Assembly: GCA_017432615.1 (NCBI GenBank) | Contig: JAFRIV010000017.1 | Span: 38,123 to 102,122, forward strand | DNA: 64,000 nucleotides | Source of the DNA: Oscillospiraceae bacterium | GTDB taxonomy: Bacteria; Bacillota; Clostridia; Oscillospirales; Oscillospiraceae | Direction: 5' to 3' | In this document: positions 32,066 to 36,061 of the stretch, one piece after another | Layout of the letters: each line of letters starts with the position of its first letter | Numbering within the stretch: position 1 is the stretch's first letter | Notes under the pieces: generated by a model | Database searches by the model: none | Told to the model about the DNA's origin: nothing | Seen by the model: the letters and a program-made list of their open reading frames with translations, nothing else | Made by a program: the position numbers and the translations under genes

Positions 32066-33787
32066 TTACAGATTTCGGATCTGGCTTCGGATCAGGGCAC
32101 CTACTGTGTCGGCCAGGCGGTCAAAGCGCTGGATACGAACAAAATCCTTCCCGTAGACCAGTTTGGCGGAAGGAAGGTCTTCCTCTTCACCGGTAAAAAT
32201 ACACATGACAGCGATTCCGTCAGCACGGGCACGCCGGACTTCCATTGCGGTATCACGTATGCCGGTGAGTGCTTCATAAGGGATTGGTTCTCCATCGGAA
32301 ACAGGACGGATCTTCACAACATCATTGGGCTTGACATCAGACAGAATAATGAGAAGCTTGTTTTGATAGGGAGAAGAGTTGATCAGATGATGGGCAGCCC
32401 GAACAGCCAGACCGTCACGGTTGCAGCCGTTGGACACATATTCAAAAATGTTGCGGTTGTCGTTCGGCTTGTGATAATCACGGAAAATGCGGAGAATGGT
32501 ATAACCCGTCATTGAACAGAAGGACAATACCCTGCAGGGAATACCGCATCGGGTGAGACTCTCGGCAATGATGTAGCCTTGGGTTGAAATGATTTCCTGC
32601 CGGTTTTTCTGCGAGGTGGAAGCGTCCAGAAGGAGATCGACACAAAGATCGCCGATGTCATCGTTTTCATTTTTCAGAAAAACGGATTCTTCTTTCAGTA
32701 CAGCAGCACGCCAGATACGAAGGGGATCGAGAAAGCCGTGATAAGATCTGACGGGAGAAGGCTGCAGATACATCAGCACAGAGTTACGAATATTGGCAGA
32801 CAGCCGGGAGATGGCGATGCGATTTCGTGCCATTTCTTCGCGATAGTAGTTTCGGTTTTTTTCTACCTGCGCGGCTTCGCGCTGGCGGGAGAGGGCTTCA
32901 AACGCATTCCGCATTCCAGCAGAACTTTCCCGTTTGCCGTAGGTAAAATGCAAATGGCAAAGTGCATGGTTATCAATACAAAGAGCTTTTTCCAGATCGG
33001 CCGTCTGACGCGGCGAATACAAAGAACTGCCGAATTTTGCCTCCATGAATTCCCTCAGTTCGGAGGCGGAAAGCGTTGTTTTGATTTCTCGCTGTCCATC
33101 AGTATATCCGGCAGATGCCCCGCCGTAAAGATTCTCGGGATGATCGGCAAATCCGATACCAAATTTTCGATAACGTGGCCTGCTGTTCCGTTTTGCATGA
33201 GGAACAAAGGGAGGAAAAAACAGATGATGTCCGGAATGTTTTTTTTCTTCGGCGATAAGCTGGAACCATTGCAGATACAGTGATTTGGCCTGTGCAACAA
33301 GCTCATCAGTACTCAATTCAGGAGAAAACTCCAGCATATCAAGCAGTTTCCGGCTGGCGGCGTCCAAGTCATCGGGGCGGTTGAGGACGCGTGCCCAGTG
33401 AGCAGAGGAAAGTGTGGTGAGCAGATCCCGGTCAATGCTGTGGTGGCGAGCGTTTTCCGCGATATAAGCAGCAGCATAATTATTCCGAAGGGTAGCAAGG
33501 ACAGGGCGAAGCGGAACTTCCCGAAAAAAAACACAGTTTTCCAGTCCCAGCCATAGCAGTCCTTCATAAGTGTCAGCCTCTTCTTCAGCAGAAAAACTGC
33601 GGAAAACCGATTCAATTTTTGGATATTCATAGTGCTTTCGCACGGCACCGATAATACAATTCCAGTAAACATCAGCCTGACCGGAAGAATCATATGCCTT
33701 GAAATCGGGAGTAAAGGAATAGCTGTCCGCACAGCTCCAGATCAGGTTTTCAGCACGTTTTTTCTGAAGCTCGGAAATTTCAATCAT
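32066..33787 (-). CDS. VWA-domain protein, partner of a MoxR-type ATPase
   Basis: This 573-residue protein has a C-terminal von Willebrand A domain (about 380-573) with the metal-ion-dependent adhesion site DASTS at about residue 388. The N-terminal two-thirds is helical with charged segments, in the style of NorD/CoxE/CobT-type proteins. These act with MoxR ATPases to insert metals or remodel target proteins. It overlaps the upstream AAA gene by one base (TAATG). Neither a nitric-oxide reductase, a CO dehydrogenase nor a chelatase lies nearby, so the client protein is unknown. Confidence 0.8.
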   Translation of the reverse strand: MIEISELQKKRAENLIWSCADSYSFTPDFKAYDSSGQADVYWNCIIGAVRKHYEYPKIESVFRSFSAEEEADTYEGLLWLGLENCVFFREVPLRPVLATLRNNYAAAYIAENARHHSIDRDLLTTLSSAHWARVLNRPDDLDAASRKLLDMLEFSPELSTDELVAQAKSLYLQWFQLIAEEKKHSGHHLFFPPFVPHAKRNSRPRYRKFGIGFADHPENLYGGASAGYTDGQREIKTTLSASELREFMEAKFGSSLYSPRQTADLEKALCIDNHALCHLHFTYGKRESSAGMRNAFEALSRQREAAQVEKNRNYYREEMARNRIAISRLSANIRNSVLMYLQPSPVRSYHGFLDPLRIWRAAVLKEESVFLKNENDDIGDLCVDLLLDASTSQKNRQEIISTQGYIIAESLTRCGIPCRVLSFCSMTGYTILRIFRDYHKPNDNRNIFEYVSNGCNRDGLAVRAAHHLINSSPYQNKLLIILSDVKPNDVVKIRPVSDGEPIPYEALTGIRDTAMEVRRARADGIAVMCIFTGEEEDLPSAKLVYGKDFVRIQRFDRLADTVGALIRSQIRNL

Positions 33788-34707
33788 TAAAGGAACATCT
33801 CTTCTCTTGTGAGCGAGGAATCGATTCTGGAGACGATCAGATCGTCCACCAACTGCCGTTCATAGGTGTCAAAGCACTTATTGACAATGCTGATCTCCAA
33901 TGCCTGACCGAGCGTGAGAGAATTACGTACCAGCAGAACAGCTGCCATAAGACCGCGCAGATCCAACGCTTTGGTTGAAATTTCGCTGCTGTCGCATTTT
34001 TTCCGAATATCCTGGAAGAGAGAGGCAAGCTGCTCTGAATACTCCTCTTTCAGTTGCGGATACTGAGCCTTCAGCAGGCGCTGTACTTCCTCTTCCCCAA
34101 TGATTGGCATATTCAGTACAACAAAGCGGGAGGCTAAGGCTTCATTTAACTCGCGTGTGCCTGCATACCCGTAATTCATGGTGCCGATAAAACGCGTACC
34201 GGGAGCAAGAGTGATGCGTTCATAGCCGGGAACATCAATGATACGGCGGAAATCCAACGTGGCATGGAGCACCGCAAGAGACTCATTTTTTGCCATATTG
34301 ATTTCATCCAGAATTCCGAAACCGCCGTGCAAAGCACAGCAGGTAATCGGACCCTGCCGAAAATGCACCTCTCCATTTCGGAACGTATCAGCGCCGATTA
34401 AAGTAGAAGCATCGGTATTCAGGTAGAAAGAGATATCCCATTCCGGACGGGAAAATACAGCTGCAAGGTTTTCCGCAAGCACGTTTTTCCCGGTCGCCTT
34501 CGGGCCGACCAGAAGAAGATTCTCCCCCGCAAGAATAGCCGTAAGAGCTTCTTCCCATACGGCTTTCCCATAATAATGAATCTTTGGGTCTGGAATGCGG
34601 TGGACAAGTTCCTCCGGGCATGAATGTTCACGGCGAAAAGAAACGATACGGGTGAGAATTTCTTCCCGTATCCCCTCCTGACGCAGAAACTCCAACAGAT
34701 CGTTCAT
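33787..34707 (-). CDS. MoxR-type AAA+ ATPase
   Basis: This 306-residue AAA+ ATPase has Walker A GPKATGKN (about 68-75), Walker B GILDEINMAK (about 131-140), sensor 1 in FIGTMNYGYAGTRELNEALA, and an arginine-finger region at ASRFVVLNMP. It belongs to the MoxR/NorQ/CbbQ group, which forms hexameric rings and works with VWA proteins. An AGGAGGT site precedes the ATG. It has its own promoter, and the two-gene operon is divergent from the CARF nuclease. Confidence 0.88.
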   Translation of the reverse strand: MNDLLEFLRQEGIREEILTRIVSFRREHSCPEELVHRIPDPKIHYYGKAVWEEALTAILAGENLLLVGPKATGKNVLAENLAAVFSRPEWDISFYLNTDASTLIGADTFRNGEVHFRQGPITCCALHGGFGILDEINMAKNESLAVLHATLDFRRIIDVPGYERITLAPGTRFIGTMNYGYAGTRELNEALASRFVVLNMPIIGEEEVQRLLKAQYPQLKEEYSEQLASLFQDIRKKCDSSEISTKALDLRGLMAAVLLVRNSLTLGQALEISIVNKCFDTYERQLVDDLIVSRIDSSLTREEMFL

Positions 34708-34795: not shown

Positions 34796-34829
34796 TTGCC
34801 AGTGGACGAAAAGTGATGTAAAATCACTT
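34796..34829 (+). promoter_or_regulatory. Promoter of the CARF nuclease with operator-like dyad
   Basis: TTGCCA (34796-34801), 17 bp, TAAAAT (34819-34824). The -10 box is embedded in the inverted repeat AAGTGAT...ATCACTT (34811-34829, seven-bp arms, five-base centre), which is well placed for a repressor. The ribosome site GGAGGAG follows. Confidence 0.75.
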
Positions 34830-34851: not shown

Positions 34852-36027
34852 ATGAAAACGCTGATAGAACTCTATGATGATTCACCGATTGAGAATGTCC
34901 TTGCGGCGGATACTTTTCTGCCGGAAAGGATCGTATATCTGTGTCCTACGGAGATTGCACAGGATAAAGACAAACAGCAGAAATTGAAGGAATACTTTTC
35001 TCACCGTGGTTTGGAGACGGAACTGCTTTTTTTCGAAACAAGTCTTTTTTATGCCGGAAAAGTAGAAAAACAGCTTCGCCAGGTGACGGAGACTTATCCG
35101 GACTGTGCCATTGATATTGCAGGCGGCAGTGATGCAGCTCTGTTTGCATCCGGAGCACTGAGCCGGGAAAGGAATGTGGCAGTATTCACGCACAGCCGGA
35201 AAAAGAAGCGGTTTTTTGAAATCTGTAACGCACCTTTTGCAGATCATCTGCCGATCGATGTAAAATATACGGTAGAAGACTTTTTCCTGATGGCCTATGG
35301 AGCCTCAAAAGCAGGGCGTGTGGAAAATCAGACACTGGAACGATATATAGATAGAATTGATGCTTTTTTTCGTGTTTTTCTCCGATTTCGGAAAAAATGG
35401 AATTCTATCACCAACTGGTTTCAGCGCGCTTCCAGGGCAGACAAAAACGGATATTTTACTTTGGATGTTTCCTGCGATTATACGCTGAAAGGGGAACGCT
35501 CTTCCAGAATCCCGGCAGATGAGGAGGCTTTGAGGGAACTGGAACAGCTTGGCTTTTTGAAAGATCTGGTGATTCGAAGAGATGAGAGGGTCAGTTTTCA
35601 ATTTGAAGATGAGCAGATCCGCACCTGGCTGCGTGATCAGGGGAGTGTACTGGAGATCTATACCTGGAAGGCCTGCCGGGATGCGGGGATTTTTCAGGAT
35701 GTACATTGCAGTATCATTGTGCAGTGGGAACGAGGTAAAGGCGAAGAAATCGTCTCCAATGAGATTGATGTGATCGCAGTACAGGAAGCAACACCGGTTT
35801 TTATTTCCTGTAAGACCTGCCCGATTGATACGGATGCCATCAACGAACTTGCCATTTTGCGCGACCGTTTTGGAGGGGATGCGGCAAGAGCTCTTCTTGT
35901 CTCTACAGAAAATTGCCGTGCTATTACCCGTCGTCGCGCTGACGCCCTTGATATTGATGTCATTACCTGGCAGGAACTGCGTAACTGTTCTCTGCGGGAA
36001 CAGATCCGGTCACTGATGAAAAAATAA
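34852..36027 (+). CDS. Card1/Can2-like CARF-nuclease (DUF1887)
   Basis: This 391-residue protein combines an N-terminal CARF-like Rossmann domain with a C-terminal PD-(D/E)XK nuclease fold, the architecture of Card1/Can2 (DUF1887). In type III CRISPR systems such proteins cut nucleic acid when bound by cyclic oligoadenylate. CARF elements are PERIVYLCPTE and DIAGGSDAALFASGAL, where GGSD replaces the more common GGTK. The nuclease site shows NEIDV (Asp306) and FISCKT (Lys321); the position that usually holds the catalytic Glu is Ser319. No CRISPR array or cas gene is seen in the window. The gene is single, with its own promoter and terminator. Family assignment is firm; activity is uncertain. 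Confidence 0.82.
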   Translation: MKTLIELYDDSPIENVLAADTFLPERIVYLCPTEIAQDKDKQQKLKEYFSHRGLETELLFFETSLFYAGKVEKQLRQVTETYPDCAIDIAGGSDAALFASGALSRERNVAVFTHSRKKKRFFEICNAPFADHLPIDVKYTVEDFFLMAYGASKAGRVENQTLERYIDRIDAFFRVFLRFRKKWNSITNWFQRASRADKNGYFTLDVSCDYTLKGERSSRIPADEEALRELEQLGFLKDLVIRRDERVSFQFEDEQIRTWLRDQGSVLEIYTWKACRDAGIFQDVHCSIIVQWERGKGEEIVSNEIDVIAVQEATPVFISCKTCPIDTDAINELAILRDRFGGDAARALLVSTENCRAITRRRADALDIDVITWQELRNCSLREQIRSLMKK

Positions 36028-36061
36028 CAGACAGTGCAGGAAATGCACAAAGTCTGCTTTT
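36028..36061 (+). terminator. Probable terminator of the CARF nuclease gene
   Basis: A two-part hairpin (CAGAC/GTCTG and GTGCA/TGCAC with small bulges) followed by CTTTTC. It begins immediately after the stop codon. Confidence 0.55.

Follow-up and report, generated by a model that had tools for sequence, protein, structure and literature searches.

Can2, Card1 and Cdn1 are type III CRISPR effectors in which a CARF sensor domain is joined to a PD-(D/E)XK nuclease domain that is activated by cyclic tetra-adenylate (cA4). A different output is found in RtcR, a CARF domain fused to a sigma-54 AAA+ activator. The contacts of Can2 with cA4 include Ser19, Thr42, Lys99 and Tyr118, all conserved with Can1, and Lys99 binds a phosphate of the ligand (PMC7969007; this and the other papers are cited here from extracts). 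In Cdn1, the substitutions T9A, K104A and Y124A severely reduced cA4-induced activity (PMC12825302). The concept of an orphan CARF protein is known from the literature (PMC4012209, PMC7969007), and RtcR, an activator of RNA repair, represents a CRISPR-independent family of CARF sensors (PMC4012209, PMC9650030, PMC7790460); the RtcR and Rv2818 families mostly have no Lys or Arg after strand 4, and other ligands were proposed for them (PMC4012209). Here we describe a CARF nuclease gene in a 64,000-nucleotide stretch (the window) of contig JAFRIV010000017.1 from a gut bacterium of the Oscillospiraceae. With a probability of roughly 60%, we consider its product to be a CRISPR-independent relative of Can2 and Card1, in which a ligand other than cA4 would activate metal-dependent cleavage and Glu332 would replace the Glu usually found at position 319. 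The features of the gene are the following.

34852..36027, + strand: CARF-PD-(D/E)XK nuclease gene, 391 amino acids, ATG start, TAA stop
34852..35262, + strand: Rossmann-like CARF domain, about residues 1-137; the model matches CARF proteins here (1-125 to 1-137)
35113..35133, + strand: residues 88-94, strand-4 motif D-I-A-G-G-S-D, with D94 at the site of Can2 Lys99
35638..36003, + strand: PD-(D/E)XK nuclease domain (PF09002), residues 263-384
35653..35655, + strand: E268, a helix Glu invariant in close relatives
35758..35769, + strand: residues 303-306, N-E-I-D, in which E304 and D306 correspond to Can2 E276 and D278
35806..35814, + strand: S319-C320-K321, with Ser at the usual Glu of the ExK motif
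35845..35847, + strand: E332 on helix 327-340, the proposed relocated catalytic carboxylate

The protein is a member of the Can2/Card1 family (CARF4, PF09002), as both the profile matches and the full-length fold indicate. The Card1-like endonuclease PF09002 is its sole Pfam family (residues 263-384, 50.8 bits), PADLOC calls it CARF4--CARF_PDDEXK (residues 1-377), and a structure model built on a 55-sequence alignment (mean predicted local distance difference test score, pLDDT, 94.1; predicted template modelling score, pTM, 0.90) has VC1899, Can2, Cdn1, Dysgonamonadaceae Can2 and Card1 as its top solved matches over the full length. This upholds the Card1/Can2-like layout that an initial annotation had read from the sequence. 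Can2, Card1 and Cdn1 (7bdv, 6wxw, 8z4i/9u49) share with the window protein the layout, the fold, the NE-x-D motif and the nuclease Lys. With PF09002 as the only Pfam family the protein falls outside the RtcR family, whose output is a transcription activator, whereas that of the window protein is a nuclease domain.

Conservation was assessed in an alignment of 110 rows, comprising 86 distinct genes with a mean pairwise identity of 57%. Identical in all rows are D88, G91, G92, D94, T113 and S115 on the CARF side and E268, N303, E304, D306, S319, C320, K321, N331 and E332 on the nuclease side; D9 is conserved in 109 of the 110. Asp306 and Lys321, named earlier as nuclease motif residues, thus keep that assignment, D306 being the equivalent of Can2 D278. 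An orthodox D...(D/E)-x-K active site is not present, since residues 319-321 read Ser-Cys-Lys in 110/110 rows. Can2 (7bdv), VC1899, 8bao and Card1 all have Glu-Cys-Lys at this point, and Cdn1 has Glu-x-Lys according to its paper (PMC12825302). At the position of Glu332, 7bdv and 6wxw (Card1) have Lys.

The initial annotation had regarded this Ser as a peculiarity suggesting an altered nuclease, a suggestion that was not supported. In the phylum sample, eleven relatives with a readable motif have a Cas10 match at most 20 kb away (L044, L046, L047, L049, L050, L051, L053, L054, L056, L058 and L059, the match of L049 being below the cut-off), and ten of them have Ser at 319, paired with a helix Glu; L049 has Glu, as does L055, with Cas10 about 30 kb away. 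In two of the ten, L054 and L058, the motif reads Ser-Cys-Ser and Ser-Cys-Thr, the motif Lys missing as in TbrCan2 of Thermoanaerobacter brockii (8q3y series). TbrCan2 carries the Ser and the helix Glu of the window protein (Ser-Leu-Thr at the motif in 8q3y and 8q3z, with Thr at the position of Lys321); it differs in retaining GGTK and, going by the PDB titles, was solved with cA4 bound. Across lines, Glu occupies position 332 in 26/29 Ser lines (the genus counted as one, TbrCan2 included) and in 0/7 Glu lines (three loci and four solved chains), a Fisher probability of 1.4e-5 that ignores phylogeny and is about unchanged once near-duplicates are collapsed. Six of the seven Glu lines have Lys332, and the seventh, L057, has His in an uncertain stretch where two alignments disagree; the helix Lys of VC1899 falls directly opposite the L041 Glu in the alignment. 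We infer from this covariation, and by analogy with Cfr10I, that the carboxylate has probably been relocated from 319 to E332. A moved carboxylate with the Lys kept has a precedent in the PD-XXK-E enzymes Cfr10I, NgoMIV, Ecl18kI, SsoII and PspGI (PMC551604). A Glu entering the active site from elsewhere, which the annotation had named as a finding that would speak against its own interpretation, is indicated at the level of sequence covariation.

The same residues bear on whether the protein is a sensor with a dead nuclease, which has lost its catalytic Glu to Ser319 and acts by binding or scaffolding. Replacement of the ExK Glu in Cdn1 (E323A) does abolish activity (PMC12825302). However, we judge a dead nuclease unlikely, since the Ser is common to ten of the eleven Cas10-linked relatives, the remaining active-site residues are invariant, and the cA4-bound TbrCan2 carries Ser-Leu-Thr plus the helix Glu. 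TbrCan2 is reportedly an active nuclease. Its E341A form, altered at the position of E304, was crystallised with DNA, as one would do with an inactivated enzyme, to go by the PDB titles.

At the sensor end, the profile alignment places D9, P32, D94 and T113 at the positions of Can2 Ser19, Thr42, Lys99 and Tyr118, so that all four named cA4 contacts expected of a Can2/Card1 effector are replaced. The reading of GGSD in place of GGTK is confirmed, with Asp94 at the site of the phosphate-binding Lys in 110/110 rows. Lys or Arg at position 94 occurs in 9/11 Cas10-bearing lines versus 1/17 others (p 7e-5 without phylogeny; the genus taken as one line, and L049, L057, L071, whose CARF domain was misaligned, and L060, with internal stops, excluded). 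The exceptions are L059 (Thr) and L056 (Glu), which lie near Cas10, and the orphan L041 (Arg). A second Cas10-free clade of CARF nucleases was also observed (L042, L045, L048 and L052), in which LSNGNP or LSNGHP replaces GGTK and which has Ser-Cys-Lys and Glu332.

In the own genome of the window, which is 87% complete, we found no Cas10 by either PF22335 or PDLC01529, no Cas1 and no SMODS nucleotidyltransferase (PF18144). The absence of CRISPR noted earlier for the window is confirmed. We then surveyed 61 genomes of the same genus (G000-G060), of which 31 carry the nuclease gene. Cas1 was present in four (G003, G008, G012 and G035), every one without the nuclease gene (0/31 carriers versus 4/30 non-carriers, p 0.05), and a Cas10-like gene in 2/31 carriers (G015 and G024). 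The remaining 29 carriers had neither, a soft count as these are mostly incomplete metagenome-assembled genomes (MAGs). Linkage to, or coexistence with, Cas10, as expected of a Can2/Card1 type III effector, was thus not found in the own genome and was seen in two of the 31 carriers. Among eleven weak PF22335 matches checked in same-genus and more distant genomes (G065, G096, G068 (C3) and G015 (C1) being outside this check), all proved to be GGDEF proteins (L033, L037, L040, L036, L188, L189, L190, L191, L193, L194 and L195). A cGAS/DncV-like nucleotidyltransferase (CD-NTase) was rejected as a general signal maker, as PF18144 matched in just 4/169 genomes, carrier G018 with a weak match among them, and the own genome was negative.

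An ordinary cA4-activated type III effector, served by a distant CRISPR locus or by a Cas10 that the species has gained and lost, could draw on the eleven Cas10-linked relatives and on the Cas10d-like genes of G015 and G024. We consider it improbable, because two models found no Cas10 in the own genome and none was found in 29 of the 31 carriers, because the CARF gene is missing from G029, the only genome of the genus in which a full Csm1 (domain B and palm domain present) was seen, and because the Lys required for Cdn1 activation by cA4 has become an invariant Asp. Since the lineage is mostly CRISPR-free and the pocket rebuilt, a different signal is probable, in agreement with the earlier proposal of a host-encoded sensor with another signal. 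The units in the two exceptional carriers, L213:3710-6996 (G024) and L214:6165-9514 (G015), consist of a Cas10d-like gene (~530 aa) and a Cas5/Csx10-like gene (~580 aa); inspection of the neighbouring open reading frames (ORFs), made without a profile scan, revealed no obvious further cas gene, and the orphan CARF nuclease is located elsewhere in both genomes.

Under the CRISPR-independent reading, the protein would dimerise, and its CARF domains would bind a host- or phage-derived ligand other than cA4, in a pocket with D9 and D94 where Can2 carries Ser19 and Lys99. Ligand binding would most likely close the CARF dimer and the two nuclease domains, as described for Cdn1 (PMC12825302), and this closure would switch on metal-dependent nucleic acid cleavage, most likely in a defence or stress response. 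E304 and D306 would form the metal site with K321 as the motif lysine, and Glu332, on the next helix, probably substitutes for the usual Glu at 319.

As to the nature of the ligand, L056, the only acidic-pocket relative seen in a type III locus, lies in a type III-B operon directly ahead of the genes for CorA, Cmr1 and Cas10. CorA effectors receive S-adenosylmethionine-AMP (SAM-AMP) in Bacteroides, and the Cas10s that make it likewise use acidic residues around the methionine moiety (PMC10600005). The position of L056 beside CorA gives a hint, which is a lead only, on the nature of the ligand: as a speculative and rather unlikely option, the Oscillospirales acidic-pocket clade might be the receiver in a CRISPR-independent second-messenger pathway whose messenger is positively charged and not an oligoadenylate, for instance a SAM-nucleotide such as SAM-AMP or a similar compound made by host or phage. 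The acidic-pocket CARF nuclease at L197:13218-14387 (G514), adjacent to CorA, Cmr1 and Cas10 in a type III-B operon, is possibly SAM-AMP-responsive.

Several observations weigh against a CRISPR-independent, active nuclease. Nuclease activity and ligand binding are predictions in this clade. The absences in the genus are soft, given the incomplete MAGs, and two carriers do hold a Cas10d-like plus Cas5-like pair. D88 alone is unremarkable, as the published CARF signature [DN]x[ST]xxx[RK] (Makarova et al. 2014, PMC4012209) permits D or N. On a 40-row tree, which excludes L049 and L057, the Lys94-Cas10 association reduces to 2-3 independent comparisons and is not significant. Orphans from the order group in a single clade (SH-like approximate likelihood ratio test, SH-aLRT, 97 by a quick method), which also contains L056, an acidic-pocket relative inside a type III-B operon with CorA. 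Three relatives (L069, L070 and L072) have Ser319 without Glu332, with Lys332 and a Glu at 329, one helix turn earlier. The nearest solved orphan, the CARF/DUF1887 protein VC1899 of Vibrio cholerae (PDB 1XMX, 18% identity), has only weak residual RNase activity, which cA4 does not regulate (PMC7969007); it differs from the window protein in having Glu-Cys-Lys with Lys at the helix position where the latter has Ser319 and Glu332, and Arg96 at the site of D94. Finally, clustering of the ORFs within 8 kb at 81 loci (the window plus 80) found no conserved neighbour gene, in a scan in which the target itself was lost in 21 loci to a longer overlapping antisense ORF and many contigs ended early, and therefore nothing indicates a signal producer.

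The gene is under purifying selection, with ratios of non-synonymous to synonymous substitution (dN/dS) of 0.03-0.28 across 12 close pairs. It occurs in 55/100 genomes of the genus (G000-G099), four copies being partial or in pieces (G004, G005, G014 and G079) and one having an in-frame TGA (G009), and in 66/199 genomes of the whole draw of relatives. A decaying gene, the reading given for VC1899, is improbable, since the low dN/dS and the constancy of 15 motif positions across 86 distinct genes indicate that the gene is maintained. A scan of GTDB species yielded 274 relatives; the 80 best were retained and come from MAGs of Oscillospiraceae, Ruminococcaceae and Clostridia, many of ruminant origin, and from isolates of Pseudoflavonifractor phocaeensis and Merdimmobilis hominis. 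Another 309 genomes drawn from the phylum added no family match. A phage or plasmid origin was rejected: tblastn (E 1e-5) against 50,697 phage and 72,556 plasmid records gave no match, two queries found no relative in viral contigs, and six viral fold matches (E up to 0.001) never exceeded a template modelling (TM) score of 0.24 by query length. Its patchy presence and varying neighbourhoods suggest an accessory gene that is frequently lost or moved.

The surroundings of the gene in the window are as follows.

32066-34707, - strand: MoxR-like AAA_5 ATPase and CobT-like VWA pair, upstream of and divergent from the nuclease gene
34796..34824, + strand: weak promoter-like site, TTGCCA-17-TAAAAT
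34811..34829, + strand: inverted repeat AAGTGAT-gtaaa-ATCACTT with perfect 7-bp arms, lying across the -10 box and possibly a repressor site or operator
36028..36056, + strand: terminator-like hairpin followed by CTTTTCT, -12.9 kcal/mol, z -3.1

The nuclease gene probably forms a transcription unit of its own. Of the promoter and terminator previously ascribed to it, the terminator-like hairpin stood (z -3.1) and the promoter-like site proved weak. The inverted repeat at 34811-34829 was absent from the upstream regions of the relatives compared, and a conserved operator over the -10 box was rejected on this ground. Downstream lies a TctC-type transporter gene. A conserved gene partner was likewise rejected, the commonest neighbour family reaching just 10/81 loci when neither the nuclease gene nor the ORFs antisense to it are counted; the VWA family occurs in five loci and the MoxR-type family in three (of 81, the window counted), only in a few near relatives. 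Ten adjacent genes from seven loci, a subset of twenty from ten loci, included no defence family by Pfam, and 5/10 had no Pfam match.

In the open-licence literature, covered by titles and the starts of abstracts, we found no description of this clade, of the invariant Asp or of a Ser/Glu swap in Can2-like proteins. The Ser-x-Lys...Glu pattern implies that a Ser at the ExK Glu is insufficient by itself to declare Can2-like enzymes dead. Carriers with neither Cas1 nor Cas10 make up 29/31 within one genus (a soft count from MAGs), in contrast with only 9/145 CARF-bearing genomes with neither cas1 nor cas10 in the 2014 survey (PMC4012209). For CARF sensing outside CRISPR, the question of the ligand can be tested directly in this large, conserved clade of single genes, whose pocket is altered.
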